DNA of 64,000 nucleotides. Origin: Aromatoleum evansii (GTDB taxonomy: Bacteria > Pseudomonadota > Gammaproteobacteria > Burkholderiales > Rhodocyclaceae). This document shows positions 22,356 to 59,591 of this stretch, in pieces. The position numbers and the translations under genes are program-made. Location: assembly GCF_012910805.1 (NCBI RefSeq), contig NZ_WTVK01000031.1, forward strand, positions 1 through 64,000, in the 5' to 3' direction. Position 1 is the first letter of the stretch. Each line of letters begins with the position of its first letter. The notes beneath the pieces were generated by a model that did not search any database, had not been told where the DNA came from, and saw only the letters and a list, made by a program, of their open reading frames with translations.

Positions 22356-22375
22356 CATCACTAAAACGAACTATG
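22356..22375 (-). promoter_or_regulatory. Weak copy of the steroid-regulon element
   Basis: Gene-ward reading CATAGTTC-GTTT-TAGTGATG, 121 bases before the DUF1302 start. Only about half of the consensus TTAGTCC-N4-GGACGATG is kept, so this is the least certain member of the set. Confidence 0.25.
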
Positions 22376-22447
22376 GAAAGGCGTGCCGGCAGCGGCGCTG
22401 CGGCCCTTTCCGCCCCCTCCCGGCTATCCCATCCCCCGCATGTCCGC

Positions 22448-22465
22448 ATCACCGGAATCGGTGAT
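22448..22465. promoter_or_regulatory. Palindrome upstream of the Oah-type hydrolase gene
   Basis: A perfect 7-4-7 inverted repeat, ATCACCG-GAAT-CGGTGAT, lies about 125 bases upstream of the GTG of the hydrolase gene in a 355-base gene-free stretch (22235-22589). It has no T tract and is not at a transcript end, so a repressor or activator site is more likely than a terminator. Confidence 0.4.
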
Positions 22466-22589
22466 TCGCGCGCGGCATCGTGCCTGTACGGTCGAGGCGC
22501 AATCAAAGATCGAAAACAGATTGTTGGATCGACATCACTGCAATGTGTTGCCGGACATCCTTCCGGCACACCCATACACGGAGACCGAC

Positions 22590-23717
22590 GTGAGCCTGGA
22601 TTTTCTGAAACGTGACAACGAGCTGAAGAATCACGCCCTGATGGAGAACGAACACCTCGGGGCGTCCGCGCCATCGGTCATCTACGAGAAGCGCCCGGTC
22701 CTCGACCCTGCCGGAAAGCCCGTAGACGACCTCTATTCAGCCTGGATCACCCTCAACAACCCGGCGCAATACAACTCCTACACGACCGAGATGGTGAAGG
22801 GGGTCATCGAGGCCTTCCAGAAGGCCTCGTCCGACCGCAGCGTCGTTGCAGCGGTGTTCACGGCAGTCGGCGAAAAGGCATGGTGCAGCGGGGGAAACAC
22901 GGCCGAATACGCGTCCTACTACTCCCGTCGGCCCCAGGAATACGGCGACTACATCGACCTCTTCATCGGCATGGTCGACGGCATCCTCAACTGCAAGAAG
23001 CCGGTGATCTGCCGCGTGAACGGCATGCGCGTGGCGGGTGGCCAGGAAATCGGGATGGCGACCGACATCACGATCTCGTCCGACATGGCGGTGTATGGTC
23101 AGGCGGGCCCGAAGCACGGGAGCGCGCCGGTGGGCGGCTCGACGGATTTCCTGCCGTGGTTCCTGTCAATGGAAGACGCGATCTACAACTGCGTGTCGTG
23201 CGAGCTGTGGAGCGCGTACAAGATGAAGTACAAGGGCATGATCTCGAAGGTCCTGCCGGTGCTGAAGAAGAACGGCGAGTGGATCCCCAATCCGAAGGTG
23301 CGGACCGATACCTGGTCCGAGTTGGGGCAAATCGTGTACGGCGAGATGGTTCAGGGGGCGGCGGCGACGGAGGCCGATGCGCTGATCGCGCAATGCGAAG
23401 TGGATTTCGAGCTGCTCGACAAGGAAGTGAATGCGCTGATCTGGCGCTTCACGAACCTCTTCCCCAACTGCCTGATGAACTCCATCGACGCGATCCGGGG
23501 CAAGAAGAAGTTCTTCTGGGACCAGCAGAAGGCCGCGCAGCGCCACTGGCTCGCCGCGAACATGAACAACGAGGCCTGGCTGGGCTTCAACGCCTTCGAG
23601 TCGCGCAAGATCACGGGCAAGGACACGGTTGATTTCGTGAAGTACCGCCAGCTGCTCGCGAAGGGCGCGCAGATCGACGAGCACTTTGCCGAGCAGGTGC
23701 TGGCCGCTCCCCGCTGA
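22590..23717 (+). CDS. oah: 6-Oxocyclohex-1-ene-1-carbonyl-CoA hydrolase-like ring-cleaving enzyme
   Basis: A 375-residue crotonase-superfamily protein with strong resemblance to Oah/BamA of anaerobic benzoyl-CoA degraders: LYSAWITLNNPAQYNSYTTE near the N-terminus, then CSGGNTAEYASYY, GGQEIGMATDITIS and GQAGPKHGSAPVGG. These regions form the CoA pocket and active site in that family. The known enzyme hydrolyses the C-C bond of a cyclic beta-oxo-enoyl-CoA to give 3-hydroxypimelyl-CoA. The GTG at 22590 with GGAG six bases upstream is preferred because it gives MSLDFLKRDNEL. No benzoyl-CoA reductase or other bam gene is near. In a steroid cluster it may act on a six-membered-ring CoA intermediate, or be a displaced bam gene. 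Confidence 0.8.
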   Translation: MSLDFLKRDNELKNHALMENEHLGASAPSVIYEKRPVLDPAGKPVDDLYSAWITLNNPAQYNSYTTEMVKGVIEAFQKASSDRSVVAAVFTAVGEKAWCSGGNTAEYASYYSRRPQEYGDYIDLFIGMVDGILNCKKPVICRVNGMRVAGGQEIGMATDITISSDMAVYGQAGPKHGSAPVGGSTDFLPWFLSMEDAIYNCVSCELWSAYKMKYKGMISKVLPVLKKNGEWIPNPKVRTDTWSELGQIVYGEMVQGAAATEADALIAQCEVDFELLDKEVNALIWRFTNLFPNCLMNSIDAIRGKKKFFWDQQKAAQRHWLAANMNNEAWLGFNAFESRKITGKDTVDFVKYRQLLAKGAQIDEHFAEQVLAAPR

Positions 23718-23739
23718 GCGATGCCTTTGGCGCCTGCTT

Positions 23740-23782
23740 GCTCGGGCGCCGGTGGAGCCGAGTGGCCCACCGGCGCCCGAGC
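23740..23782. terminator. 16-bp perfect hairpin between convergent genes
   Basis: GCTCGGGCGCCGGTGG at 23740-23755 pairs perfectly with 23767-23782 around an 11-base loop, between the stops of the hydrolase (plus) and ETF-QO (minus) genes. No T tract follows on either strand, so it may work as a transcription roadblock or mRNA 3' stabiliser rather than a classical terminator. Confidence 0.55.
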
Positions 23783-23876
23783 GGTGTAAAAAACGATGGT
23801 GTCACGCAATAGGGAGAGGAGGAGAGCGTCGAAAACCCCAAAAGCGTTCGGTGCGACACCACCGGAAAACTGTCGG

Positions 23877-25520
23877 CTACATCCCTTGGTAGATCGGCCC
23901 CTCGCCGCCCTGCGGCACCACCCAGCTGATGTTTTGCGTCGGGTCCTTGATGTCGCAGGTCTTGCAGTGCACGCAGTTCTGCGCGTTGATCTGCAGACGC
24001 GGACCGGCTTCCTCGCGCACGATCTCGTACACGCCGGCCGGGCAGTAGCGCTGCTCGGGGGCGTCGTACTTCGCGAGGTTCACCGCGATCGGCACCGACG
24101 CATCCTTCAGCTGCAGGTGGCAGGGCTGGTCTTCCTCGTGGTTGGTGTTCGACAGGAACACCGACGACAGGCGATCGAAGGTCAGCACGCCATCGGGCTT
24201 CGGGTAGTCGATCTTTGGGCATTCGGAGGCGAGCTTGAGCTTGTCGTGATCCGAGCTGTTGTGCAGCGTCCACGGGGCCTTGCCGCCTAGGAGCTTCTGG
24301 TCGATGCCGAAGAGCAGCGACCCCATCCACAGGCCCTTCTTCATGTAGGGCTTGAAGTTGCGCGTCTTGTGCAGTTCCTCGTGCAGCCAGCTCGACTTGA
24401 AGGCTTCCGGGAAGGCGACGAGTTCATCGCGCTGGCGCTCGGCGCCCACCGCCTCGAACGCGGCTTCGGCGGCGAGCATGCCGCTCTTGATCGCGGCGTG
24501 GCTGCCCTTGATGCGTGCGGCATTGAGGAAGCCCGCGTCGTCACCGATGAGCGCGCCGCCCGGGAACACGAGTTTGGGCTGGCTCTGCAGGCCGCCCGCG
24601 GCAATCGCGCGCGCGCCATACGCGAGACGCTTGCCGCCTTCGAGATATTTGCGGATCTCGGGGTGGGTCTTGTAGCGCTGGAACTCCTCGAACGGCGACA
24701 GGTGCGGGTTGGTGTAGTTGAGGCCCACGACGTAGCCGATCGCGACGAGGTTGTCCTCGAGGTGATAGACGAAGCCGCCGCCGTAGGTGTCGGAGGGCAG
24801 CGGCCAGCCGGTGGTGTGCACGACGAGCCCCTTCTCGTGGCGCTCGGCCGGTACTTCCCACAGCTCTTTCAGGCCGATGCCGTAGGTTTGCGGATCGACG
24901 CCGTCGCGCAGGTTGAATTTTCCTTCGAGCTGCTTGCCCAGGTGTCCACGACAGCCTTCGGCAAACAAGGTGTATTTCGCATGCAACTCCATGCCCGGCT
25001 GGTAAGCGGGGCCCTGCTCGCCTTTGCGCGTGACGCCCATGTCGCCGGTCGCAACGCCCTTCACCGCACCGTTCTCGTCGAAGAGGATCTCGGCGCCGGC
25101 AAAACCGGGATAGACCTCGACGCCCAGCGCTTCGGCCTGTTCGCCGAGCCACTTCGCGACGTTGCCCAGGCGCACGATGTAGTTGCCGTGGTTCAGGAAA
25201 CAGTCCGGCAGCAGGCCGTTGGGGACCTTGCGCCCGCCCGTCTCGTTGAGGAAGATCACGCGATCTTCGGTGACCGCGGTGGTCACCGGCGCGCCCTGTT
25301 CCTTCCAGTCGGGGATCAATTCGTTCAGCGCGCGCGGATCCATCACCGCGCCCGAGAGGATGTGCGCGCCGATCTCGGCGGCCTTCTCGATCAGGCACAC
25401 CGCCAGTTCCGTGCCCTTCTCGTTGGCCAACTGCTTGAGCCGGATCGCCGCGGCCAGCCCCGCGGGGCCTCCGCCGACGATCAGGACGTCGAATTCCATC
25501 GATTCGCGTTCGTTGCTCAT
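23877..25520 (-). CDS. Electron-transfer-flavoprotein:ubiquinone oxidoreductase
   Basis: A 547-residue ETF-QO of normal length. The N-terminal FDVLIVGGGPAGLAAAIRL binds FAD. The middle has the membrane-surface ubiquinone region, and the C-terminus has the [4Fe-4S] ligands CPAGVYEI...NCVHCKTCDIKDPTQNI. It takes electrons from reduced ETF and delivers them to the quinone pool at the inner membrane. It lies 17 bases behind an SDR gene in one transcript preceded by the element at 26450-26469. With EtfAB close by and two acyl-CoA dehydrogenases in the window, it closes the electron path for steroid-ring and side-chain beta-oxidation. Confidence 0.93.
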   Translation of the reverse strand: MSNERESMEFDVLIVGGGPAGLAAAIRLKQLANEKGTELAVCLIEKAAEIGAHILSGAVMDPRALNELIPDWKEQGAPVTTAVTEDRVIFLNETGGRKVPNGLLPDCFLNHGNYIVRLGNVAKWLGEQAEALGVEVYPGFAGAEILFDENGAVKGVATGDMGVTRKGEQGPAYQPGMELHAKYTLFAEGCRGHLGKQLEGKFNLRDGVDPQTYGIGLKELWEVPAERHEKGLVVHTTGWPLPSDTYGGGFVYHLEDNLVAIGYVVGLNYTNPHLSPFEEFQRYKTHPEIRKYLEGGKRLAYGARAIAAGGLQSQPKLVFPGGALIGDDAGFLNAARIKGSHAAIKSGMLAAEAAFEAVGAERQRDELVAFPEAFKSSWLHEELHKTRNFKPYMKKGLWMGSLLFGIDQKLLGGKAPWTLHNSSDHDKLKLASECPKIDYPKPDGVLTFDRLSSVFLSNTNHEEDQPCHLQLKDASVPIAVNLAKYDAPEQRYCPAGVYEIVREEAGPRLQINAQNCVHCKTCDIKDPTQNISWVVPQGGEGPIYQGM

Positions 25521-25537
25521 GGCTTACGTGGTTCCGC

Positions 25538-26392
25538 TCAGGACGCGGCTGGGCCCGCGTGGCGCCAGTCGGGGACGATGCCGTGTTCGAGCGCGAAGGG
25601 CTGGGCGTTGATCGTGCGTTTCTGGAATTGCGCCGCATCGTCAGCGGTCGCGAGCCATAGCAGGACGGCAGCCGGGACTTCCGGCGGTGCCGATCCGTTT
25701 CGCAGCGCGATCACGCCTTTCTCGCCGATCGTGACCTTCAGCGCGTCTGTGGTCACGACGCCGGGATTGACCGTGAAGGCGCGGATACCCTTTTCACCCA
25801 GTTCGACCGACAGGATGCCCGACAGCCGCGACACCGCAGCCTTGCCTGCGCCGTAGGCGTAGCCCCAGCCGCCCCGCCCCGCGGGGACGGGCGGATCGCT
25901 TTCGCCGGCGCTCGAGGTGATGTTGATCACGACGCCCTCGCCCTGCGCGAGCATCGCCGGCAGCACGCAGCGCGTGAGCAGGAAGGGCGCCATTATGTAG
26001 CCCTGGAACACGCGCTGCAGCGTCGCGGGCTCCAGATCGAGGAAGGGCAGGTTGAGGTCGCTGCCCTGGTAGACGGCGTTGTTGACCAGCACGTCGATGC
26101 GGCCGAATTCGCGCAGCACCGCTTCGCCGGCGGCCTGCACCGACGCGTCGTCGAGCAGATCCATGCGGATCGCGAGCGCCTTGCGGCCGAGACTGCGAAT
26201 GGCGGCGGCGGTTTCCGCGAGGCTCCCGGGCAAGGGGCTCCCGTCCGCCTTGTGCAGGGCGTGCTCATGGGTCTCGCCCTCCTCCATCGTGCGCGCACTG
26301 ATGGCGACATCGAAACCGGCGCGCGCGAAGGCAATGGCCGTCTCGCGCCCGATGCCGCGGCTGGCTCCCGTCACGAATGCGACTTTCTGCAT
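25538..26392 (-). CDS. Short-chain dehydrogenase/reductase
   Basis: A 284-residue SDR: nucleotide-binding TGASRGIG near residue 9, an NNAVYQG variant of the NNAG motif, a serine-rich ITSSAGES strand and the catalytic YAYGAGK (YxxxK). An insert after the second strand (TMEEGETHEHALHKADGSPL) makes it longer than minimal SDRs and resembles hydroxysteroid-dehydrogenase-like (HSDL2-type) or Rv3549c-type members. The start at 26392 (MQKVAFVTGAS) is clear. It is first in an operon with ETF-QO, 57 bases downstream of a regulatory element. A hydroxy-steroid or hydroxyacyl-CoA substrate is likely but unspecified. Confidence 0.75.
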   Translation of the reverse strand: MQKVAFVTGASRGIGRETAIAFARAGFDVAISARTMEEGETHEHALHKADGSPLPGSLAETAAAIRSLGRKALAIRMDLLDDASVQAAGEAVLREFGRIDVLVNNAVYQGSDLNLPFLDLEPATLQRVFQGYIMAPFLLTRCVLPAMLAQGEGVVINITSSAGESDPPVPAGRGGWGYAYGAGKAAVSRLSGILSVELGEKGIRAFTVNPGVVTTDALKVTIGEKGVIALRNGSAPPEVPAAVLLWLATADDAAQFQKRTINAQPFALEHGIVPDWRHAGPAAS

Positions 26393-26449
26393 GGAATCCT
26401 CGACGATCGACTGTGTTGAGTGGATATTCGGCTGTTTGACGCGGCGCCG

Positions 26450-26469
26450 CATCGTCCATTCAGATCATG
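26450..26469 (-). promoter_or_regulatory. Steroid-regulon element, SDR/ETF-QO operon
   Basis: Gene-ward CATGATCT-GAAT-GGACGATG. The proximal half is an exact GGACGATG; the distal half is degenerate. It is 57 bases before the SDR start, the closest of the set. Confidence 0.5.
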
Positions 26470-26516
26470 TCCGGCGCATTTACCGACGGCGAGCAGTCCC
26501 GGCCGGAAAATGACGC

Positions 26517-26547
26517 GGGGGCCCGCTCGGCGTCGCGAGGGGCCCCC
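26517..26547 (-). terminator. GC-rich hairpin after the LuxR-type regulator gene
   Basis: GGGGGCCC at 26517-26524 pairs with GGGCCCCC at 26540-26547, extended inside by CTCG/CGAG. On the minus strand it lies about 30 bases past the regulator's stop and is followed by CATTTTCC. A terminator is likely, though the T tract is weak. Confidence 0.5.
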
Positions 26548-26577
26548 GGTGACGATGCTGCCTGCGCAGCGCAGGCT

Positions 26578-27747
26578 TCAGCGGTTCTTGCTGAGCGCCG
26601 CGACGCTGTTGAGCATGATGCGCACGAGCTCGGTCTGCCGCCGCACGCCGGTCTTGGAGAAGATCGAGCGCAGGTGTGCGCGCGCGGTGTTGCGGCGGAT
26701 GCCGAGGGCCTCGGCGGCCTCCTCCAGCGACAGGCCGTTCGTGAGTTCGAGCGCGAGCGCGGTTTCGGCGGGCGTGAGGTTGAAGAGCTGCTTCGCGACC
26801 GTGCTGCTCGCCAGCGACTTGCCGGCCGCATCGCGGATATAGACCACGGCCGCGGGCTGGCCCTTGCCTTCGGCCCATTCGCTCGATGGCACGACCTCGA
26901 CTACCACTCCCAGGCTCACCAGTCCCGAAGGCCGCGCGATGGACATTGCCTCGGCCACCGCGACATCTTCAGTGCCATAGCGCGCAAACGCGTTGCGCAC
27001 CAGGCGCTGCAGCTCGCGGTTGTCGCTCGGGTAGGACGCCTCCAGCCGGCCGCCGACGATCTTGAGGCCGTCGGCGGACGCGAGGATCTCCTTCGCAATC
27101 AGGTTCTGATCGAGCACCTTGCCGCTCTCGTCCAGCACGATCGTCGCGATCGACAGCCGGCCGATCGCCTGCGCATACATCGCGCCCATCGATTCGCTGC
27201 GGTCGAGCTGGTTGTGGATCTGCAGGGCGCGCCGCAGGTGGGGCAGCAGCGCTTCACAGCGTGCGCGGTCCTCGGCCGAGAACTTCGGCGCATCCTCGGG
27301 ACGCGTGATGCGGAAACGGAGTTTCCCGGCGCCGGGGGTCGCGATATCGACGCCCATGACGTGAAAGACGCCGTGCGCCGCGCACCAATGCTGGTAATAG
27401 GACGAGCGCCGCCACTCGCTCTCGCTCATCAGGTCCTCGACCGTAAACACCTTGTCGGCCGGCTGATTGACGAAGGGCGTCGTCGTCTGGGGGTAGTTCA
27501 TGTAGGTGACGCGGCCGCCGCCCTCGACGTCGCCGACGGCGATCATCAGGCCCTTGTCGGCGAGCTCGGGCGTGCGCAGGATCAGCGTCACGTAGTTCGC
27601 CGTGAAGATCTGCCGCAGATATTCGAGCGCGTCCGCCCACGACTTCGTGTCGAGGGCCGCATCGTACAAGGTGCTGACGATCCGGTCGTACTGCTCCAGA
27701 TCGAAATTCGACTGCATCAGGGACGAAGTCCCCATGGTTGCTTCCAC
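26578..27747 (-). CDS. LuxR-family transcriptional regulator, TeiR-like
   Basis: A regulator of about 389 residues. The last 65 residues form a clear LuxR/FixJ helix-turn-helix: [45 protein letters not shown]. The N-terminal 300 residues have no receiver domain and look like a ligand-sensing region. Size and layout match TeiR, the testosterone-inducible activator of Comamonas testosteroni. I choose the GTG at 27747 because AAGGAG stands eight bases before it; the longer frame runs through a direct repeat (ggggttccctcc twice at 27779-27804) that is probably untranslated. LuxR-type proteins bind roughly 20-bp dyads, so this is the leading candidate to bind the repeated element of this window. 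The assignment is inference from context. Confidence 0.75.
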
Positions 27748-27911
27748 GATCTCTCCTTCACCGGGAATTCGTCTATCGGGGGTTCCCTCCTTTGGGGTTC
27801 CCTCCACGTCCCGGTCATCTCACATCGTTGCCGCAACTGCCGGAGCCATTTCGGCCCCGACCCGCGCAGCCCGGAAGCGTCGCCCCCGAACCGCGATCAT
27901 CTCACTTCTCG

Positions 27912-28856
27912 TCAGCCCGCCGCGAGCCCGTCCGCCAGCTGCGGGACCGCCTCGAACAGGTCACCCACCAGTCCGAAGTCGGCCACCTGGAAGATCGGCG
28001 CGTCCGGATCCTTGTTGATCGCGACGATGACCTTCGAATCCTTCATGCCGGCCAGGTGCTGGATCGCGCCCGAGATGCCGACCGCGACGTACAGGTCGGG
28101 CGCGACGATCTTGCCCGTCTGTCCGACCTGGTAGTCGTTGGGCACGTAGCCCGCATCCACCGCCGCACGCGACGCACCGAGCGCCGCGCCGAGCCGATCG
28201 GCCAGCGGTTCGAGCACTTCGCGGTATTTCTCACCGCTGCCGAGGCCGCGTCCTCCCGACACCACCACGCGCGCTGCCGCGAGCTCAGGGCGTTCCGACT
28301 TGCTCAGTTCGCGTCCGAGCAGGCGCGAAACGCCGAGGTCGGCCGCCGGCGCCCGTTCGCGCACGCCTGCTGCCCCGCCGGAGGGAGCTGCGGCGAACGC
28401 CGTAGTGCGCACCGTAATCACCTGGATGGCCTCGTCGGACTCGACCGTCACCATGACGTTTCCAGCATAGACCGGACGCACATAGCGTCCAGCGCCGGCG
28501 ATCGACACCACGTCGGAGACCGGCGCCACGTCGAGCAATGCGGCCGTCCGCGGGGCAAGATTCTTGCCGAAGCTCGTCCCGCCTGCAACCACGCCCGTGA
28601 AACCTTCGCCACGGACGACGTCGGCGACCAGCACGGCGAGGTTCTCCGCCGACTGGTCGCGATAGTGTGCGGCATCCACCGCGATGATTTCGGCAACGCC
28701 CGCCAGCCCGGCGGCTTCCCCTGCGACGGCGGCCGTATCGTGACCGGCGACCAGCACATGCACGGGCGCTCCGAATGCCTGCGCGGCCGTGACCGCGTTG
28801 AGCGTCGCACCGGCGAGCTTGCCGTTGTCGTGTTCCGCAATGACCAGAACCTTCAT
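27912..28856 (-). CDS. etfA: Electron transfer flavoprotein alpha subunit
   Basis: A 314-residue EtfA starting [22 protein letters not shown]. The C-terminal FAD domain has [58 protein letters not shown] and [22 protein letters not shown], all hallmarks of the family. It carries the FAD that accepts electrons from acyl-CoA dehydrogenases and hands them to ETF-QO (23877-25520). The gene follows etfB by 14 bases. As a second or specialised ETF inside a catabolic cluster it probably serves the FadE proteins encoded at 43129-45364. Confidence 0.95.
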
Positions 28857-28870
28857 ATTCTCGGGACTCC

Positions 28871-29620: not shown

Positions 29621-29718
29621 TTGCTTCTCCCACTCGGAACGTGATTTGGATGTGCCGGCCGCCGAATCGGCGTATGGCCGGCTCCTGAACCAATCATCGC
29701 GGCCGCGGAGAAGGGAGA

Positions 29719-29738
29719 CATCCCCCAACAGGACTAAT
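29719..29738 (-). promoter_or_regulatory. Steroid-regulon element, etfBA operon
   Basis: Gene-ward ATTAGTCC-TGTT-GGGGGATG. The distal half is a full match to TTAGTCC; the proximal half has two changes from GGACGATG. It is 98 bases before the etfB start. Confidence 0.5.
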
Positions 29739-29775
29739 CGGAACAGAGGCCGGAGCCCGCGCCCTGGCGGCCGGA

Positions 29776-32851: not shown

Positions 32852-32948
32852 CTATCTGTCTCCTCGAACGCGTGCCCGCCGTCATGCAAACATCGCAATG
32901 GGGCATTTGCCCCGTTGTCGCAAGGTTTTCATACGCACCGCAGCGACT

Positions 32949-32968
32949 CATCGTCTGAACGGACTAAC
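32949..32968 (-). promoter_or_regulatory. Steroid-regulon element, hsaA-HSD-kshB operon
   Basis: Gene-ward GTTAGTCC-GTTC-AGACGATG, one mismatch in the proximal half and a full TTAGTCC in the distal half. It is 97 bases before the hsaA start, in the divergent region shared with the YCF48 gene. Confidence 0.6.
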
Positions 32969-33019: not shown

Positions 33020-33039
33020 ATTAACCCGTTTGGACGATG
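33020..33039 (+). promoter_or_regulatory. Steroid-regulon element, YCF48 gene
   Basis: Gene-ward ATTAACCC-GTTT-GGACGATG, exact in the proximal half, 79 bases before the YCF48 start. It faces the opposite way from the element at 32949-32968, so each divergent gene has its own site. Confidence 0.6.
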
Positions 33040-33118
33040 CCCAACCCCCCGCGCCGTCAATAATTGGCGCACACTGCCGAGGCCTCAGGCGGCAGACCGT
33101 TCATCAAGGAGACAGTCC

Positions 33119-34214: not shown

Positions 34215-34234
34215 ACTATTCGAAAGGGACGATG
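34215..34234 (+). promoter_or_regulatory. Steroid-regulon element, small-protein pair
   Basis: Gene-ward ACTATTCG-AAAG-GGACGATG, exact in the proximal half and degenerate in the distal half, 71 bases before the start of the zinc-ribbon protein. Confidence 0.5.
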
Positions 34235-34305
34235 CGCCGCCCTGGCCGCACGGACAGAATCGGTAACGTCAGGTCAATTCCGGCGCGACCGGATCGGAGG
34301 CGATG

Positions 34306-34950: not shown

Positions 34951-35937
34951 TCAGCGCGGCGGCGACGCCGACGCGGTCCCTCGCGCCTCGCAGAACGCCC
35001 GCCGATACGCTGAGGGGCTGGTACCGATATGCGCCGCAAAATGCTGGCGCAAGGACAAGGCCGAGCCGAACCCCACATCGGTCGCGATGTGCTCGACCGG
35101 CAAGGCCGTGGTCTCGAGCAATTGCTGCGCACGCGCCAGACGCTCGGTCACGAGCCACCTCGCCACCGTCGTGCCGGTGGCCTCGCGAAAACGCCGAGTG
35201 AAGGTTCGCCGACTCATACAAGCGGCTTCGGCCATGCGGTCTAGCGAAAGTGGCTCACCCAGCCGGCCCCGCGCCCACTCCAACACTCCCGGCAGCCGAT
35301 GCTCGCTCGGCAAGGCGGGCACCGGCTGCTCGACGAATTGCGCTTGTCCGCCTTGGCGGTGCGGCGGCGTCACCAAGAGACGAGCAATGCGGTTGGCTAC
35401 GTCCGCGCCATGGCGCTGGCGCACGAGATTCAAACAACAGTCTATCGCCGCCACCGTGCCCGCCGAGGTGACGATCCCCCCGTCGTCCTCATACAGCACA
35501 TCGGCGCGGAAATCGGCGCGAGGAAAGCGTCGTGCGAAAAGCTCGCGCCATCCCCAATGGGTCGTCGCACGTCGGCCATCGAGCAAACCCGCATCGCCCA
35601 GCACGAACGCGCCCAGGCACAATCCGACCACCTGGGCGCCGCGCGCATGAGCATCGCGCAAGGCATCAGTGAGTCCCGGCGGCGCCGGGGTTTCGGGCTC
35701 GTTCCAGGATGGAACGATGACGAGATCGGCATCGCCCATCGCCGCCAGACCGTCCGGCACGTCGATCTCGATCCCTCCCGCACAACGCACGCGGCCGGAT
35801 TCGGAAGCGCAGTATCGCACCTCGTGCGGCGGCAACCCGCACTGCGACCGATCGCCGCCGAGCACGAGGCCGGGAACCGATACGTGGAAGAGACTGATGT
35901 CCTCAAAGACGACGACGGCGACACGGATCGGCGACAC
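34951..35937 (-). CDS. GlxA-type AraC-family regulator
   Basis: A 328-residue regulator with an N-terminal DJ-1/PfpI-like domain (RVAVVVFEDISLFHVSVPG, GLCLGAFVLGDAGLLDGRRATTHW) and a C-terminal AraC double helix-turn-helix (LSLDRMAEAACMSRRTFTRRFREATG, HIATDVGFGSALSLRQHFAAHIGTSPSAYRR). The GTG at 35937 with GGGGAG seven bases before it is the best start; earlier in-frame starts lack a spaced site. The gene is divergent from an isochorismatase-like hydrolase gene across about 145 bases, so it probably controls that gene. No steroid-regulon element is present here. Confidence 0.85.
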   Translation of the reverse strand: MSPIRVAVVVFEDISLFHVSVPGLVLGGDRSQCGLPPHEVRYCASESGRVRCAGGIEIDVPDGLAAMGDADLVIVPSWNEPETPAPPGLTDALRDAHARGAQVVGLCLGAFVLGDAGLLDGRRATTHWGWRELFARRFPRADFRADVLYEDDGGIVTSAGTVAAIDCCLNLVRQRHGADVANRIARLLVTPPHRQGGQAQFVEQPVPALPSEHRLPGVLEWARGRLGEPLSLDRMAEAACMSRRTFTRRFREATGTTVARWLVTERLARAQQLLETTALPVEHIATDVGFGSALSLRQHFAAHIGTSPSAYRRAFCEARGTASASPPR

Positions 35938-36081
35938 GAGCATTCTCCCCACGCGACGCTTGAAAATGGCCCGATTTTATCTCATCAATGTTTTCGGGCC
36001 ACTATTGCAATGCGGGCCCCTGCACGACAATGCAGTCACGGATAGGCCTTCACGCCCCCCGTCGATCAACCGGAGACCCTC

Positions 36082-37833: not shown

Positions 37834-37899
37834 CGAGCTCTCCTCTGGATGGGATATGGGGAATTTCACCCAGATTTTCGAGTTCGCCGCCCCGGCCTG

Positions 37900-37919
37900 C
37901 ATCATCTGTTTGGACGATG
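37900..37919 (+). promoter_or_regulatory. Steroid-regulon element between kshA and the MBL gene (site 1)
   Basis: CATCATCT-GTTT-GGACGATG, nearly a full palindrome. By the orientation rule it faces the MBL-fold gene (122 bases away); by proximity it could serve kshA (66 bases). It pairs with site 2 thirty bases further on. Confidence 0.6.
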
Positions 37920-37949: not shown

Positions 37950-37969
37950 CATCGTCCTTTTGGACGTTT
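37950..37969 (-). promoter_or_regulatory. Steroid-regulon element between kshA and the MBL gene (site 2)
   Basis: Read toward kshA: AAACGTCC-AAAA-GGACGATG, exact proximal half, 116 bases before the kshA start. GTCC-AAAA-GGAC is a perfect inner dyad. Confidence 0.6.
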
Positions 37970-38041
37970 TTCCGCGGCACCAGCCCGGTCTAGATTGCAG
38001 CAACGATCGGATTTCTCCGACCGCAGCACACAGGAGCATTC

Positions 38042-50836: not shown

Positions 50837-50906
50837 GTCTCTGGCTCCCATGAGCCCGGCCTTTTGCCGGTATGGAAGCCATTTTCGCGACGAGCTGCGG
50901 CATGCT

Positions 50907-50926
50907 CATCGTCCGTTGAGACTAAG
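50907..50926 (-). promoter_or_regulatory. Steroid-regulon element, hsaC-ipd operon
   Basis: Gene-ward CTTAGTCT-CAAC-GGACGATG: exact proximal half and one mismatch in TTAGTCC. It is 70 bases before the hsaC start. The core is nearly identical to the site before the FATP-type ligase. Confidence 0.65.
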
Positions 50927-50973
50927 CAGTCGGCCACCCCGGACGGGGGATCTGTGGATGACGTGAAATGAGC

Positions 50974-51014
50974 AAAGCCGTTGACGCGCCCGAACAGGGC
51001 GCATCAACGGCTTT
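50974..51014. terminator. Long inverted repeat after the protease gene
   Basis: AAAGCCGTTGA-C-GCGCCC pairs with GGGCGC-A-TCAACGGCTTT around GAACA: 17 paired bases with one mismatch. On the minus strand it starts 19 bases after the protease stop and ends GGCTTTGCTCATT. It is a strong terminator insulating the protease from the hsaC promoter. Confidence 0.75.
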
Positions 51015-51033
51015 CAGGCAAGGCCGGGCGGAA

Positions 51034-52494: not shown

Positions 52495-52618
52495 GGCTTT
52501 CCCCGATCCGTTTTGTCACCGACTGTACTAATTTCATTCATTAACGCAAGCGCACCGGGTTTGCAAGAAGACGCTCCCCTCGGCGGGGAATGCACGTGAC
52601 CAATTGTGCGGAGAAGAC

Positions 52619-52652
52619 AAAAAAATGCCGCTCACCCGAAGGGCAGAGCGGC
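52619..52652 (-). terminator. Terminator of the Ltp2-like / DUF35-MaoC operon
   Basis: On the minus strand, GCCGCTC-TG-CCC-TTC-GGG-T-GAGCGGC is followed by ATTTTTTTG, about 36 bases past the stop. The T7 tract makes this the clearest terminator of the window. Confidence 0.85.
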
Positions 52653-52687
52653 CAATAAGGAGAGGACCACACGAGACCACTACAAAA

Positions 52688-53650: not shown

Positions 53651-53655
53651 CTTCG

Positions 53656-54867
53656 TCACGCTCCCTGCAGGATCAAGGCGCCCTGCTCGCTCATCACACC
53701 GCCGGTGCCGGACACATACACCCGGTCGCAACGCTTCAACTGACGATCGCCGGCACGGCCGGCGAGCTGCGTGAAGGCCTCGATCACCTGCGACATGCCG
53801 CCAGCCGATCCGGCTTGGCCGAAGCTGAGCTGACCGCCGTGCGTGTTCATCGGGAAATTCCCGCGCCAGGTGAGGTCGTGCTCGCGCACGAAGCGCATGC
53901 CCTCGCCCTTCTCGCAGAAGCCGGCGTCCTCGAGCGTGAGGAGTGCCGTGATCGTGTAGCAGTCGTAGATCTGCGCGGCGTCGACATCGGCCGGCTTGAT
54001 GCCCGCCATCTCGAATGCGCGCCGCGACGCGGGTCCGATCGGCGTCTCGGTCATCTCGGCTGCATACGAGGGAGACTTGAACGCGAGATGCTCGCCGAAA
54101 CCCGTGACGAAGGCTCCGCGGTTACGCGCACGCGCCGCGAGCTCTTTCGACGCGACGATCACCGCCGCGCCGCCCGCGACCGGCATCACGATCTCCAGCA
54201 CGTGCAGCGGATCGGCCACCATCTTGCTCGCGAGGACCTCTTCCGCCGTGAGCGGCTTGCCGAAGAACATCGCATCCGGGTTCGTCAGGGCGTTGGTGCG
54301 CTGATCGACGGCGATCTTCGCCATCGCCAGCGGGTCGTAACCGTACTTCGCCGCATAGCGCTGCGCGATCATCGCGTAGCCGGTGTTCTGGCCCATGTGG
54401 CCGTAGGGCAGGTCGAATTCCGCCTCGGGTGCGCCGAACGCCGTGCTATGCCCGCCGAAGCGCATCGCCCGGGCCATCCAGGCCGGGTCCTCGTCGGGGC
54501 CAAAGGGCGCCATGCGCGCCGGCAGCACGCACAGCACGGCCTGGCACAGCCCGAGCTCGATCGCCGCGGCTGCGCGCCACACCATCCCCACGGAAGTCGT
54601 GCCGCCCAGGTCGACGACCTCGGCGAAGTTCAACTTCATGCCGAGGTATTCGGCGGCCATCGCGGGAACGAACACCGAGGCCTCGTGGAACTGCGGCCCG
54701 TTGATGACCAGGCCGTCGAGATCCGACGCCTTCAGCCCGGCGTCCTGCAGCGCCCGCGCCGCGAGATCCGCCACCTGTTCGAGGTGGAACATGCGCGGCG
54801 CGGTCGCGTACTTCTCCGGCTTGTACTGCGCCGCCCCAACGATCGCGGCCTGTCCTTTCAGTCCCAT
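53656..54867 (-). CDS. Thiolase-like lipid-transfer protein / aldolase (Ltp2-like)
   Basis: A 403-residue thiolase-fold protein of the SCP-x/Ltp2 group. Where thiolases have the nucleophilic Cys it reads VVDLGGTTSVGMVW, so ordinary thiolysis is excluded. QIYDCYTITALLTLEDAG and the NTHGGQLSFGQAGSAGG loop are those of steroid side-chain retro-aldolases such as Ltp2, which cleave a 17-hydroxy acyl-CoA to the 17-ketosteroid and propionyl-CoA. The pair with a DUF35-MaoC protein five bases downstream is diagnostic. It lies 75 bases after a regulatory element. Presence of this pair suggests the host uses steroids that still carry a side chain. Confidence 0.82.
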   Translation of the reverse strand: MGLKGQAAIVGAAQYKPEKYATAPRMFHLEQVADLAARALQDAGLKASDLDGLVINGPQFHEASVFVPAMAAEYLGMKLNFAEVVDLGGTTSVGMVWRAAAAIELGLCQAVLCVLPARMAPFGPDEDPAWMARAMRFGGHSTAFGAPEAEFDLPYGHMGQNTGYAMIAQRYAAKYGYDPLAMAKIAVDQRTNALTNPDAMFFGKPLTAEEVLASKMVADPLHVLEIVMPVAGGAAVIVASKELAARARNRGAFVTGFGEHLAFKSPSYAAEMTETPIGPASRRAFEMAGIKPADVDAAQIYDCYTITALLTLEDAGFCEKGEGMRFVREHDLTWRGNFPMNTHGGQLSFGQAGSAGGMSQVIEAFTQLAGRAGDRQLKRCDRVYVSGTGGVMSEQGALILQGA

Positions 54868-54942
54868 GTCAGCCCCTGTTCGCGATTTGCCCTTGCCGTT
54901 GCCGGCGATGGGGGAACGATGCCACAGGCCCGAGCGCGCGGT

Positions 54943-54962
54943 AATCGTTCAAATCGACTAGG
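54943..54962 (-). promoter_or_regulatory. Steroid-regulon element, Ltp2-like operon
   Basis: Gene-ward CCTAGTCG-ATTT-GAACGATT: TAGTC kept, two mismatches in the proximal half. It is 75 bases before the start codon. Confidence 0.4.
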
Positions 54963-55099
54963 CCGGTTCGAGCTTCCCTTCACGCCTGCTGCAATCTAGT
55001 CCGCGTGGATGATGCGCGCACCGGTGGCCGATGCAAACGTCGACACACCAACGACGCTCCACATTCGGGGCGTCGACTTTCATGCGAGGAGAACGGCAC

Positions 55100-55387
55100 G
55101 TGGACGCAGTCATCCCCTGGATCGGCCTGATCGGCCTGATCGGTCTCGCCGGGTTAGCCGGCATCAAGTCGCCTGTTCTACGCTCACGCTCCGGTGCCGG
55201 GGTGCGCATGATGGGCGTGCTCGGACTGGCAGGCCTGAGCGGCATCTGGATTCCGGGCGCAGGCGCCATGGGCGCTTTCGGCGCACTCGGCCTGTGGAAC
55301 CATCAGTCCAGCCGCCTCGCCTTCTGGGGGCGGATGGGATGGACGGGACTGGTCGGCGTGCCCTTCTTGCTGATGGCGCTTAAATAG
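55100..55387 (+). CDS. Small Gly/Leu-rich membrane protein
   Basis: A 95-residue very hydrophobic protein with three to four predicted membrane segments (WIGLIGLIGLAGLAGI, VLGLAGLSGIWI, GAMGAFGALGLW, MGWTGLVGVPFLLMAL) and many glycines. The GTG at 55100 has AGGAG eight bases upstream; an ATG at 55082 is the alternative. I recognise no family. The repeated GLxGLxG pattern suggests tightly packed helices. It is a single plus-strand gene between minus-strand steroid operons; its function is unknown. Confidence 0.55.
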   Translation: MDAVIPWIGLIGLIGLAGLAGIKSPVLRSRSGAGVRMMGVLGLAGLSGIWIPGAGAMGAFGALGLWNHQSSRLAFWGRMGWTGLVGVPFLLMALK

Positions 55388-55589
55388 GTTTTCGGCTGGC
55401 CCCGACTGGGGCCGTCGCCGGTCTCCAGCCCCCGAGCTGCCCGATGATTCCGGCGAACTGATCGGCGCGCAAATACGGGCGCGCTCACCGGACGTCCATC
55501 CGGCGGCAGGACGAGACATTGAACGGTGGGCGCAAGAGACGTCGCGCTTCCCTTCTACCGGGGCGGTGCGAAGAGAAGCCGATATTCGC

Positions 55590-55769
55590 CTAGCGCGTCG
55601 TCAGCGCGGCGAAGAACTGGTCGGGCGAAGCCCGTCCCAGGACGATTCCCTGGCAGTGATGAACGGATGCGGCGCAAGACGCGACATTGTCCGACGACGC
55701 GCTCCCCTTGAACCACTGGGAGCCAATAAAGGCACACAAGGCGCCGAACACGAGCAGCTTGATCGTCAT
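55590..55769 (-). CDS. Small exported or membrane-anchored protein
   Basis: A 59-residue protein: MTIKLLVFGALCAFIGSQWF is one hydrophobic anchor or signal, then a short polar tail with two cysteines (VASCAASVHHCQG). GGAGAGAG lies before the ATG. I recognise no family. A well-matched regulatory element stands 126 bases upstream, inside the tail of the CoA-ligase gene, so it is probably induced with the steroid genes. Confidence 0.55.
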   Translation of the reverse strand: MTIKLLVFGALCAFIGSQWFKGSASSDNVASCAASVHHCQGIVLGRASPDQFFAALTTR

Positions 55770-55895
55770 TGTCTCTCTCCAGTCGGGCCTCTGACGGGCC
55801 TCTTCGGTGAACCGATCCCGAACCGCCCCTCCCGCCGGGGAGATGGACGTTCGGTCCGATGTATGACGCAACTTGCGCCGCGCAATGGCGGCGCA

Positions 55896-55915
55896 CATCG
55901 TCCAAATGGACTATA
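55896..55915 (-). promoter_or_regulatory. Steroid-regulon element overlapping the ligase stop codon
   Basis: Gene-ward TATAGTCC-ATTT-GGACGATG, exact proximal half and perfect inner dyad GTCC/GGAC. It overlaps the last bases of the CoA-ligase gene (stop at 55911-55913) and faces the 59-aa gene 126 bases away. Confidence 0.6.
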
Positions 55916-57779
55916 TCGACTTCTCCAACGTCGCTCCGAAAGCGGGCACCCCCACCTTCTCCAGCGCGGCGGACGAGTACGGCAGGTAAGTGCGGTCCGT
56001 CTCACTGCGGACGTACAGCGGGTCGTCGAAGGCAGCCGGGTCGTAGCCCTGACGCTGCAGGTCGACCTTGCGCAGCTTGAAGGTGGTCGTGAGGTCGGCG
56101 GCCTGCGACACGCGCACGAAGAGCGGCGCCGCGTAGCGCGGCAGGCGTTCCTCGGTGAGCGCGTAGAATCCGGCCGGATCGAAGCGGTGTCCGTCCTGCA
56201 TCACCACCGCCGCCATGCCCGCCCGCCCCTCGTGGCCGGGCACCTGCACACCGTAGATGTTGATCAATTCCGCGCCGGGATAATCGGAGAGCGCGTCGGC
56301 GACCTCCATCGTCGACACGTTCTCGCTTTTCCAGCGGAAGGTGTCGCCGATACGATCGACGAAGTAGAAGTAACCGTCGTCGTCGTAGCGCAGCAGGTCG
56401 CCGGAGCTCCAGTAGGCGTCGCCGTCGACGAAGACATTGCGCAGGATCTTCTTTTCCGTGGCGTCCGCCGAGGTGTAGCCCTCGAAGCGCCCGCCGCCGA
56501 TGTCCGGATGATCCACGATGTAGCCGATCCCCTCGCCGACCTCGCCCGGTTGGCACAGCAGGTAGAAGCCGCGCGCATCGCGCACGTGCTCGCCGCTTTC
56601 GAGGTCGTAGCGCACGAGACGGAAGTTGGTCTTCTCCCAGTACGGCACTCGGCCGCAGGACCCGATGCGGTTGTCGACGTTGATGAGGTTGGCGTTCGCC
56701 TCGGTCGAGCCCCAGCCTTCGAAGATCTGTACCGCACCGAAACGCTCCACCCAGCGCAGCCAGGACTCCGGGGTGAGACCCGCGCCCATCATGCAGCGCA
56801 GCGCGTGTTCCCGGTCCTGAGGGGTGGCAGGCTGGTTCAGCAGGTAGCGGCAGATCTCGCCGATGTACTGGCACACCGTGATGCCGTGGCGGCGCACATC
56901 GTTCCAGAACTCGCGCGTGCTGAACTTTCGCCGGACGACGATGCTTGCACCCGCCTTCAGCGCCGTCGACGTGACCGAGGTCGCCGCCGCGCCGTGATAC
57001 AGCGGCAGGAAACAGTAGAAGACGTCGTTCGGGCTCGCGCCGATGGTGTCGACCATCACGTCGCCCGATGACAGCCAGCGCATGTGGCTGTAGCGCGCCG
57101 CCTTGGGCAGCCCCGTAGTGCCGGAGGTGAAGATCAGCAGGCCCGGCGTCTCCGCTGTGAGCGGCGCGCGCAGGTCGCGCGGGAAAGCTTCGCGCGGCGC
57201 GCGCTCGACCTCATCCGCAAAATCGGTATCGCCGGGCCGTCTCAGGCCCGCAGGTGCCGGCCTTTCGGCATCCGGCAGCAGCCACTGCATCACGGCGGGA
57301 AGTTCTTCAGTCATGGAAAAGTTGGCAAGACACTCCTCGCCGACCAGTACCGCCTTCGCGCCGGTCGTCTCGATCGCGTGCGCCAGCGGCCGACCGCTCA
57401 CCTGCGTGTTGATGAAGGCGGCAACGGCACCGATCTTGGCCAGCCCGAACCATGCGAAGAAGAACTCCGGGCGGTTCTCGATAGCCATCGCACATACGTC
57501 CCCCGGCCCAAGTCCTCGCGCGCGCATGGCATGCGCGTACTGGTTGGCGCGCGCATCGACCTCCGCATAGCTGAAGCGGGCATCGCCGTAACTCAGGAAG
57601 GTCCTCCGGCCCTGCACCGCGGCCTGAGCCTCGACGCGGTCCGCAATCGTGTACAGGTCGCGCGGTTTGATCAGCGCACTGCTCTGTGCGCGCCGATCGA
57701 GCCTGGCCTGGGTCTCGTCGCGCGACACGATATCCTGCAAAGGCTGCGATGCCTTGCTGGCCGCGATGCCGTTGTCCAT
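55911..57779 (-). CDS. Very-long-chain/bile-acid-type acyl-CoA synthetase (FATP family)
   Basis: A 622-residue AMP-forming ligase. ATP loop LLIFTSGTTGLPKAARYSH, FEGWGSTEANANLINVDN, and SSGDLLRYDDDGYFYFVDRIGDTFRWKSENVSTMEVADAL, the signature of the FATP/VLACS branch that also contains animal bile-acid CoA ligases. The substrate is therefore likely a bulky acid such as a C22-C24 steroid carboxylate. The start at 57779 (MDNGIAASKASQ) is preferred; the longer frame is arginine-rich. It is a single-gene transcript 133 bases downstream of a regulatory element. It probably primes side-chain removal by the Ltp2-like system encoded just downstream. Confidence 0.83.
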   Translation of the reverse strand: MDNGIAASKASQPLQDIVSRDETQARLDRRAQSSALIKPRDLYTIADRVEAQAAVQGRRTFLSYGDARFSYAEVDARANQYAHAMRARGLGPGDVCAMAIENRPEFFFAWFGLAKIGAVAAFINTQVSGRPLAHAIETTGAKAVLVGEECLANFSMTEELPAVMQWLLPDAERPAPAGLRRPGDTDFADEVERAPREAFPRDLRAPLTAETPGLLIFTSGTTGLPKAARYSHMRWLSSGDVMVDTIGASPNDVFYCFLPLYHGAAATSVTSTALKAGASIVVRRKFSTREFWNDVRRHGITVCQYIGEICRYLLNQPATPQDREHALRCMMGAGLTPESWLRWVERFGAVQIFEGWGSTEANANLINVDNRIGSCGRVPYWEKTNFRLVRYDLESGEHVRDARGFYLLCQPGEVGEGIGYIVDHPDIGGGRFEGYTSADATEKKILRNVFVDGDAYWSSGDLLRYDDDGYFYFVDRIGDTFRWKSENVSTMEVADALSDYPGAELINIYGVQVPGHEGRAGMAAVVMQDGHRFDPAGFYALTEERLPRYAAPLFVRVSQAADLTTTFKLRKVDLQRQGYDPAAFDDPLYVRSETDRTYLPYSSAALEKVGVPAFGATLEKSI

Positions 57780-57912
57780 GCATTTGTCTCCGTCATTGCT
57801 GTTCTCTCGCCCCCTCGCGCGCGCACCCTTGCGGCGTGGGGTCGGAGTGCCGGCGGCGTCAGACGACGGCACTCTTGATGGAGCCAATCATTCACCCGGC
57901 GTGTAAGCGGAA

Positions 57913-57932
57913 CATCGTCCGTTGAGACTAAT
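57913..57932 (-). promoter_or_regulatory. Steroid-regulon element, FATP-type ligase
   Basis: Gene-ward ATTAGTCT-CAAC-GGACGATG, exact in the proximal half with one mismatch in TTAGTCC. The core and spacer are identical to the hsaC site. It is 133 bases before the start codon. Confidence 0.65.
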
Positions 57933-58041
57933 GCCGGCGGGAACGGAGCATCTGCAGTTTCGGGCAGAGTCCCCGCCGCCCGAACGGACGACGAGGCGTT
58001 ACGCGGGTTGCCGGAAGATGCGAGCGGGCCGACACACGGCT

Positions 58042-58680
58042 TCAGCCGCGTTCGAGCACGCAGCGCACCGCGTCCATCACCTCACGCTTCAGGACCTGGT
58101 GATCGACCGCGATGCCACGCACGGCGCGTGCTGTGATGCCGAAAAGGATCGCGCTGATCACTTCGTACTGTGCCGCAATCCGTGCTTCCAGGGCCTCGCC
58201 CGTCAGTTTCGGGTTGGCCAGCCGCAGGCTCTGGTAAGCGCTTTCCCGCGCACGGCGGTCGAGCGCATGCACACGCGCGCAGATGCACGGATTGCGAGCG
58301 CTCTCGGCGAGTATCTCCAGACGCAGCCTGGAGTTCTGCGGGTCCGTGTAATGAATGACGATGTCACCCGAGCGCGCGACGATCGCTTCGACGACGTTGC
58401 GCTCGAGGTGCACGCTATCGTGGATTTCGAGCAGGGCTTCGAGCTCGGCCTCCGCGATCGCCGCGATGATCTCTTCCTTGTTGCGGAAGTAGTAATAGAT
58501 ATGGCCGGCACTGACCCCCGCGACGGCGGAGATGTCGGCAATGCTGGCGCCGTGGAAACCCTTGTCGCGAAAGCATGCCTCGGCCGCATCGAGGATCTGC
58601 CGGCGCCGTGCCTCCGGGCCGCTCGGCGGCGCGTCGCCCGCCTCCGGCCGAACCACGCCGGTGTGCGAATCGTGCTTCAT
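58042..58680 (-). CDS. TetR-family regulator
   Basis: A 212-residue TetR repressor-type protein. The N-terminal helix-turn-helix is RRQILDAAEACFRDKGFHGASIADISAVAGVSAGHIYYYFRNKEEI, the full family motif, followed by an all-helical ligand domain. It precedes the FATP-type ligase gene but lies beyond that gene's promoter, and it is 46 bases downstream of hsdA, so it may be co-transcribed with hsdA. A role like KstR/KstR2 or the HsdA regulators is possible. It is the second candidate, after the LuxR protein, to bind the repeated element. Confidence 0.85.
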   Translation of the reverse strand: MKHDSHTGVVRPEAGDAPPSGPEARRRQILDAAEACFRDKGFHGASIADISAVAGVSAGHIYYYFRNKEEIIAAIAEAELEALLEIHDSVHLERNVVEAIVARSGDIVIHYTDPQNSRLRLEILAESARNPCICARVHALDRRARESAYQSLRLANPKLTGEALEARIAAQYEVISAILFGITARAVRGIAVDHQVLKREVMDAVRCVLERG

Positions 58681-58726
58681 CCGGACGGCCGCCTGCGGGG
58701 AATCGCCATCGCGCGCCGGCGCGCGA

Positions 58727-59494
58727 TCAGAAGCGCTCGGGTCGCGTCAGCGCATCCATGCCGCCATCGACGAACACCACCGTTCCGTGCATGAAGCTCG
58801 CCGGTTCGGACTGCAGGAAACCGACGACGCGCGCGATCTCGTCAGGGCTGCCATTGCGCCCCAGCGGCGACACGAAGTTGCGGATCGCCTCGCCATAGCG
58901 CGGATCCGACAACGAAGCCTGCAGCAGCGGCGTCTCGACCGCGCCCGGCGCGACCACGTTCAGGCGGATGCCGCGCCGCCCCCATTCGACCGCCTTGCGG
59001 CGAGCGAACACGGTGATCGCGTACTTCGAGCCCGCATACGCCGCCTGCGGATTGCCCATTGCATCGGCCTGCGCCTTCGCTGCCGCTTCGTCGCGCGCGA
59101 GCATCAGCTCGACCATCGGCAGCTTTTCGATGCCGGGGTGCGCCGAGGCCACCGATCCGATAAGGAGCGCCGCGGGCTTCTCGCCGCGCGCCAGCGCCTC
59201 ACCGAGGCCGTCGAGCAGCTCGCTCATGCCGAAGTAGTTCACTGCGACGATCAGGCCGCAGGAGCTCGCCGTCGGCCCCAGCCCCGCGCAGCAAACCAGT
59301 CCGTCGAGAACGCCGTTGCAGGCTTCAAGTGCGGCCGCCACCGCGGCCTGCCGCCCTTCGGCGGTGGAGAGGTCGGCGACGATATCCGCATCGCGTCGGT
59401 CGATGCCGATCACGCGATGCCCCGCCTGCCGCAGCTGAGCGCTGACGGCGGCTCCGATACCCGACGCCGAGCCGGTTACGACAGTTACAGTCAT
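58727..59494 (-). CDS. hsdA: 3alpha-Hydroxysteroid dehydrogenase
   Basis: A 255-residue SDR with the unusual features of Comamonas 3alpha-HSD: TGSASGIGAAV, IGIDRRDADIVADLSTAEGRQ, LVCCAGLGP in place of NNAG, VNYFG, SSVASAHP-like SVASAHP and YAGSKYA (catalytic Tyr/Lys), then GAVETPLLQASLSDPRYGE and DGGMDALTRP at the end. It interconverts 3alpha-hydroxy and 3-keto steroids with NAD and starts degradation of androsterone or bile-acid-type substrates. A regulatory element lies 77 bases upstream in the divergent region shared with the Cache protein. Confidence 0.9.
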   Translation of the reverse strand: MTVTVVTGSASGIGAAVSAQLRQAGHRVIGIDRRDADIVADLSTAEGRQAAVAAALEACNGVLDGLVCCAGLGPTASSCGLIVAVNYFGMSELLDGLGEALARGEKPAALLIGSVASAHPGIEKLPMVELMLARDEAAAKAQADAMGNPQAAYAGSKYAITVFARRKAVEWGRRGIRLNVVAPGAVETPLLQASLSDPRYGEAIRNFVSPLGRNGSPDEIARVVGFLQSEPASFMHGTVVFVDGGMDALTRPERF

Positions 59495-59571
59495 GCAGTG
59501 ACTCCTTCCGGTAACAAAGATGCCGAGAAGCGGCGCTGTTCCGGAGTATCTGCCCCCGCTAAAGCGCCGGA

Positions 59572-59591
59572 CATCGTCCAGCCGGACTACG
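59572..59591 (-). promoter_or_regulatory. Steroid-regulon element between hsdA and the Cache/RND operon
   Basis: Read toward hsdA: CGTAGTCC-GGCT-GGACGATG, exact proximal half and full TAGTCC, 77 bases before hsdA. It also lies 64 bases before the divergent Cache gene and could serve both. Confidence 0.65.

Follow-up and report, generated by a model that had tools for sequence, protein, structure and literature searches.

The lux box of quorum-sensing LuxR is a 20-bp dyad centred near -42.5, from which a LuxR-family protein activates transcription in class II fashion. Regulons in which one regulator serves a whole steroid gene set are known from Actinobacteria, where the regulators, KstR and KstR2, are TetR repressors. 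TeiR/TesR of Comamonas testosteroni, encoded in a cluster of steroid genes, is described as a positive regulator of LuxR type (PMC6895838, PMC6678751), Pseudomonas stutzeri Chol1 carries two TeiR-like genes in its steroid cluster, and its growth on cholate is slowed to start when one of them is deleted (unpublished data cited in PMC8399759), and a TesR-like LuxR protein is found in the progesterone cluster of Caenibius tardaugens (PMC12239570). Here we analyse a dyad that recurs before steroid genes in a 64,000-nucleotide stretch of Aromatoleum evansii (contig NZ_WTVK01000031.1, positions 1 to 64,000; hereafter the window), together with LuxR1, a LuxR-family protein encoded in the same cluster.

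The dyad resembles the lux box in its 20-bp length, its predicted position near -42.5 and its proposed use in class II activation by a LuxR-family protein, but differs in sequence, in the sensor domain of the regulator and in serving a pathway-wide catabolic regulon. LuxR1 is like TeiR/TesR in family and genomic setting only, and whereas a membrane kinase mechanism has been proposed for the latter and no operator is stated in the text available, a direct DNA site is predicted here. The Chol1 regulators also lie in a steroid cluster, with no binding site given in the available part of the source; the comparison strain in our data, Stutzerimonas stutzeri K1, has both sites and a LuxR 77% identical to LuxR1. 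The EdcR operator of C. tardaugens is likewise palindromic and lies in a steroid (estrogen) cluster, but it belongs to a TetR repressor, sits over the -10 box and has another sequence (PMC8700777). In the literature searched, which did not extend to the original TeiR paper, we found no operator for the TeiR/TesR-like group: none is given in the accessible portions of PMC12882949, PMC6895838, PMC8399759, PMC12239570, PMC8700777, PMC6678751, PMC13101464 and PMC4810484, and the matches to the 8-mer of the dyad (see below), among those listed, look unrelated by title.

A conserved dyad and a fixed -10-like element

An earlier note on this DNA had proposed thirteen intergenic sites as the operator of a steroid regulon read by an activator. 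On re-reading the window all thirteen were found, nine of them with the exact 8-mer GGACGATG, at 57-133 nucleotides (nt) from the start codons listed in Table 1. As had also been stated, the 8-mer is not fully specific, with five of its 14 copies in the window lying elsewhere (3353, 20606, 25573, 31584 and 39676). The plus-strand sites fit better when shifted by +1 base (33021, 34216 and 37901), and the dyad can be written as TAGTCY-N4-GGACGATG, an inverted repeat around N4. A weight matrix trained on 12 window sites, leaving out the one at 22356, gave 19.8-30.6 bits for the training sites.

When the sites of the A. evansii genome were aligned on the dyad, a second conserved block became apparent 20 nt downstream, a feature absent from the earlier account. 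Its information content was 4.41 bits over six columns, while the maximum in 5000 circular-shift permutations was 2.43 (0/5000 as good). The word NANNNT, which had played no part in finding the sites, stands at +20±1 in 17 of 19 own sites, and in all 19 if the two sites between kshA and MBL are read on the opposite strand. The same was seen in loci from other genomes (L163-L237), where 158 of 160 matches of at least 20 bits had the word at this distance, versus 108/1600 at ten other offsets (orthologous repeats counted); among 86 non-redundant sites, A occupied +21 in 67 and T occupied +25 in 58. If transcription is assumed to start seven bases after the hexamer, the dyad would be centred near -42.5 from the predicted start. 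Class II activators bind at sites centred near -41.5 or -42.5, and the dyad would thus fall at a class II activator position. Columns -3 to +2 read ATG followed by mixed bases, and the TTGACA consensus was not seen there.

The kshA/MBL pair supplied the only two exceptions to the +20±1 rule under the strands originally assigned. Read on the opposite strand, the kshA site has GAAAAT and the MBL site TAGATT as -10-like word. In an alignment of eight genomes the two operators are separated by DNA of variable length, the kshA operator keeps its distance to the -10-like word in 8/8 (GACAAT in G005), and the MBL operator keeps TAGATT in 8/8 at 20-21 nt. Because each operator and its -10-like word are conserved as a unit in this opposite reading, the pairing first proposed has to be inverted, with 37900 (-) belonging to kshA and 37951 (+) to MBL. 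The gene-side placement of the GGACGATG half is not without exception: at kshA/MBL the opposite pairing is the one supported by the footprint.

First-order Markov copies of the window gave a mean of 0.15 matrix matches of at least 18 bits, versus 12 real (training) sites. In DNA outside the training set, matches of at least 20 bits numbered six in four further steroid contigs of the same genome (63 kb together), one in 400 kb of random stretches of that genome and none in 400 kb of genome G009, a control with neither a LuxR1 relative (E 1e-15) nor KshA (E 1e-60). For a genome-wide view, scores were taken for every place that differs from WAGTCN5GGACGATG by one base at most, 56 in total: the eight exact matches are all intergenic and in steroid contigs, whereas 34 of the 48 one-mismatch matches lie inside genes, as judged with a simple GC-position gene caller whose genic and intergenic calls are approximate. 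At least 20 bits were reached by 15 of the 56 places, 14 of them steroid sites; the remaining one (C286, 20.0 bits) and another off-cluster intergenic place (C8, 19.1 bits) are both without a -10-like word. An equal density of sites inside genes or before unrelated operons, the outcome that had been named as refuting the idea of an operator, did not appear.

Co-occurrence with LuxR genes in and beyond the genus

Among 17 genomes of the genus, the strict pattern TAGTCYN4GGACGATG had 56 exact matches, all in eight genomes, with none in the other nine and none in a reversed control. LuxR1 (86-100%), its paralogue LuxR2 (39-41%) and KshA are present in exactly the same 8/17 genomes. In the corresponding stretches of the relatives, 177 of 178 matches of at least 16 bits fall outside genes, and in G012 all eight strict matches are gathered within 117 kb of one 4.96-Mb contig.

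In the order (399 genomes), a strict match was found in 13, with more than one only in G000 (8) and G128 (5); each of the other eleven, among them G280 (LuxR 48%), has a single match. Since the reversed control gave 6, we take the single matches in the ten genomes lacking a strong LuxR relative as chance. A LuxR relative at E 1e-30 was present in 13 of the 399 genomes, and strict sites accompany it in G000, G128 and G280. At class level KshA was found in 5 of 369 genomes, including that of the window. Of the other four, G128 has LuxR and five sites, and in the remaining three, G472, G615 and G697, both LuxR (E 1e-10) and sites are absent. A looser pattern was matched in 26 of 30 genomes, the exceptions being these last three and G319, with three control matches over the 30 (one in G439, two in G615).

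A scan of public genomes with the LuxR alignment found 148 relatives. The analysis covered the best 80 loci, with identities of 57-94%; they come from Pseudomonas, Halopseudomonas, Stutzerimonas, Thauera, Zoogloea, five Aromatoleum/Azoarcus already in the genus comparison and proteobacterial bins, the closest named ones being Aromatoleum toluolicum, A. toluclasticum and Azoarcus sp. Aa7 (91-94%). The window matrix found 246 matches of at least 18 bits in these loci (both strands counted), versus 2 in Markov and 3 in reversed sequence, and 244 of the 246 lie outside genes, in loci where intergenic DNA makes up only 19%. A 5-kb fragment (L205) was the only locus without a site. When the small loci L238-L255 are also taken in, the genes most commonly behind a site are YCF48-like (61 rows), HsdA-like (32), HsaA-like (30) and KshA-like (21), although the KshA-like genes of Pseudomonas, at 27-32% identity, may be other Rieske oxygenases.

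Further away, plasmid NZ_CP140104.1 of Vibrio alfacsensis (L256) combines a 58% LuxR with a steroid side-chain-like gene set. Its three sites score 24.9, 27.1 and 25.1 bits and stand before an acyl-CoA dehydrogenase, etfB and an enoyl-CoA hydratase/SDR pair (CoA, coenzyme A), all with a -10-like word. Cases at greater distance are weak, Burkholderia arboris (LuxR 46%) having three sites of 14.8-19.3 bits, each with the word at +20. On Sphingobium pTomTYG64a (L258:13483-14740; LuxR 36%) a 19.0-bit site with the word at +20 lies about 55 nt before kshA, next to four further sites at 14-17 bits without a -10-like word, which hints that the module may reach the Alphaproteobacteria.

Taken together, the comparisons within the genus (17 genomes), across the order (399) and over the 80 named loci, along with the fixed -10-like element, support a shared regulon operator read by an activator. 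The observation itself is confirmed and is stronger than first claimed, and on sequence evidence the dyad behaves as a true operator.

A LuxR-family activator as the probable reader

We propose, with a probability of about 0.82, that the dyad is the operator of a TeiR/TesR-like LuxR-family activator of steroid catabolism, namely LuxR1 and perhaps also LuxR2, acting in class II fashion. While the sites, their spacing, conservation and co-occurrence are read directly from the DNA, from them we infer binding, activation and a ligand. A LuxR1 dimer would bind the dyad, with its centre near -42 relative to the predicted start. It would thus sit immediately before the expected position of a -35 box and 20 nt before the -10-like hexamer, and from there recruit RNA polymerase to promoters in which a good -35 box is lacking. 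The switch would be triggered when the N-terminal part of LuxR1 senses a steroid or an intermediate of the pathway. Some 19 promoters would be turned on, serving ring cleavage, the side-chain and CoA steps, and membrane proteins.

The gene for LuxR1 lies in the steroid cluster, amid KshA_C, BphC-like, ChsH2 and DUF1302/1329 families, and LuxR1 is the reference protein most often matched (83 loci). Its C-terminus matches Pfam GerE (25.8 bits, cut-off 23.5), and among the 11 Pfam families listed for it at E 1 there is no kinase. In favour of the proposed role, the DNA-binding part is, over 32 relatives, the most conserved of the protein (mean 0.93, versus 0.61-0.75 elsewhere). A profile search of the PDB returned only ComA DNA-binding domains (E 0.004-0.006). 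The structure model is modest (mean predicted local distance difference test score 72, predicted template modelling score 0.49) and has two alpha/beta parts before the DNA-binding domain; compared with PDB folds it gave template modelling scores of only 0.20-0.35 among the matches listed, many of them GAF/PAS sensors, so that the sensor fold is no more than suggested. No relative of LuxR1 was found in the viral contigs scanned.

Other observations weigh against this proposal. According to reviews, TeiR is a polar membrane protein that works by way of a kinase activity (PMC6678751, PMC8399759, as far as the text available goes), and LuxR1 has no membrane-like segment (highest 19-residue hydropathy 1.48). 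According to a report cited in the available part of PMC6895838, tesR-like genes occur only in C. testosteroni, a claim that, if TeiR-like is taken broadly, is not borne out by the Chol1 report and the loci described here. The 80 loci were picked by nearness to LuxR1, and the regulators considered were those of the reference set. No genus genome has one of LuxR1, LuxR2 and kshA without the other two, so the genus comparison cannot tell them apart, and one of the 56 strict matches (G008:C13:351818) lies inside a gene. Ten of the 13 order genomes with a LuxR relative have no strict site; nine of these genomes have weak relatives (E 1e-31 to 1e-41), and G319, with four relatives (36-46%), has no match even to the looser pattern. 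The matrix does find one site of 24.5 bits in G319, before one of its four LuxR genes.

It is unlikely that LuxR2 rather than LuxR1 is the main reader in the genus, or that the two proteins share the sites, although some sharing may occur. LuxR2 shares the eight genomes of LuxR1, and its DNA-binding domain matches that of LuxR1 at 36/57 positions, versus 108/290 in the preceding part. However, genomes whose only relatives at E 1e-50 are of the LuxR1 type still carry sites: G434 has 8, G443 4 and G450 6, each with a single such relative, and G434 has an additional distant one (26%).

We regard as very unlikely that the dyad serves a LuxR protein for repression, even though it touches the -35 region and a LuxR repressor of a steroid gene has been reported in Comamonas (cited in the available parts of PMC8700777 and PMC6678751). 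A single fixed distance between site and promoter without a -35 consensus is what class II activation requires, and TeiR/TesR is reported as a positive regulator. Sites of repressors are usually variable in position.

The TetR protein of the cluster, named along with LuxR1 as a candidate in the earlier note, has still less in its favour. A palindrome near a promoter would suit a TetR dimer acting as repressor, but although a close orthologue (79-85%) is present in 6/8 site-bearing genus genomes, G002 and G013 have none and retain 2 and 6 exact strict sites, and neither TetR nor AraC ranks among the 45 most frequently matched reference proteins of the LuxR loci. TetR was accordingly rejected as reader, while the suggestion of LuxR held up, its gene co-occurring with the sites. 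Least probable of all is that the dyad is an upstream promoter part for an alternative sigma factor, as fixed spacing and preferred orientation might suggest, since it is placed before the -35 position, consists of two inverted halves around N4, takes the opposite reading at kshA/MBL and tracks the LuxR gene.

Returning to LuxR1 as activator, we lean slightly towards a more general proposition, in which a single module of operator and promoter, directly recognised by TeiR-like LuxR activators, would be a general steroid-catabolism switch of Proteobacteria, strong in Beta- and Gammaproteobacteria including the Vibrio plasmid and traceable in Sphingobium. If this is true, the TeiR-like activator family would act by direct DNA binding and not via a membrane kinase cascade. 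A defined operator with a matched regulator is directly testable by binding and reporter assays, and it predicts pathway membership, including that of YCF48-like, MMPL, zinc-ribbon and 59-aa (amino acid) genes. It could further mark steroid-degradation regulons in environmental genomes and provide a part for steroid biosensors.

Individual sites and neighbouring genes

Table 1. Predicted operator sites and candidate regulator genes (window coordinates unless a contig is given).
Feature	Position	Strand	-10-like word	Start codon	Bits	Remark
Before DUF1302 gene	22356..22374	-	GAGCAT 22330-22335	ATG 22234	8.2	weak
Before SDR/ETF-QO	26450..26468	-	GAATAT 26424-26429	ATG 26392	25.9	
Before etfBA-luxR	29719..29737	-	GATGAT 29693-29698	GTG 29620	19.8	
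Before hsaA-like/SDR/kshB-like operon	32949..32967	-	AAACCT 32923-32928	ATG 32851	25.9	
Before YCF48-like gene	33021..33039	+	AATAAT 33059-33064	ATG 33119	25.8	
Before zinc-ribbon gene pair	34216..34234	+	CAGAAT 34255-34260	ATG 34303	21.8	
With kshA	37900..37918	-	GAAAAT 37874-37879	ATG 37833	17.9	27.0 on +; paired by footprint
With MBL/ligase	37951..37969	+	TAGATT 37991-37996	ATG 38042	17.3	21.5 on -, at 37950; paired by footprint
Before hsaC-like operon	50907..50925	-	GAAAAT 50881-50886	ATG 50836	27.1	exact in strict pattern
Before Ltp2-like thiolase/ChsH operon	54943..54961	-	CATCGT 54916-54921	ATG 54867	22.8	
Divergent from 54943	54996..55014	+	AAACGT 55035-55040		12.9	weak extra site; word at +20
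Before 59-aa gene	55896..55914	-	CAAGTT 55870-55875	ATG 55769	30.6	
Before FATP-like ligase	57913..57931	-	AATGAT 57887-57892	ATG 57779	27.1	
Before hsdA-like SDR	59572..59590	-	GATACT 59545-59550	ATG 59494	21.9	
LuxR1, TeiR/TesR-like activator	26578..27747	-				proposed operator reader; GerE helix-turn-helix residues 324-377
LuxR2, paralogue	C327:1660-2787					41% to LuxR1; beside aldehyde dehydrogenase
TetR-family gene	58042..58680	-				rejected as operator reader

The gene families around the window sites comprise KshA, Fer2/NAD reductase (KshB-like), BphC-like ring cleavage, ETF, ETF-QO and ChsH2/thiolase, and also AMP ligases, DUF1302/DUF1329, MMPL and YCF48-like proteins. The site at 22356 had been called weak from the start and is so by score, yet it is conserved among genus relatives: in the five other genus genomes in which a DUF1302 of at least 92% was found it is kept at 8.2-11.0 bits with GAGCAT at +20 (eight loci, three genomes being seen twice), and its counterpart reaches 18.7 bits in Thauera (L174) and 17.4 bits in Pseudomonas (L207). 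The chance of at least 8.2 bits within 450 nt of background is 4.4%, and distant DUF1302 genes (35-44%) are mostly without an upstream site. The site at 32949 has a counterpart in 7/7 genus relatives. The divergent site at 54996 was missing from the original list, and G012 has an 18.6-bit site divergent to its 54943 counterpart.

Between the zinc-ribbon pair and an isochorismatase gene, 34951-35943 encodes an AraC-family regulator with a DJ-1/PfpI domain, upstream of which a site of at least 8 bits was not found. In many loci of Pseudomonas and relatives (L170-L236), the LuxR gene occurs together with a YCF48-like gene that has a strong site before it and often an MMPL gene as companion, and some of these loci are without a clear hsaC or kshA nearby. 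In genome G259 (L242), a gene for a LuxR relative at only about 28% (to LuxR2) has a 20.2-bit site with a -10-like word 194 nt upstream of it.

Beyond the window, the A. evansii genome has sites on contigs C281 (enoyl-CoA hydratase/SDR, hydrolase, amidase and DUF1329), C315 (SDR), C327 (flavin reductase) and C3 (acyl-CoA dehydrogenase). On C327, a near-perfect palindrome at 4385-4403 (L034; 17.9 bits) lies 137 nt before an aldehyde dehydrogenase gene and recurs in six genus relatives.

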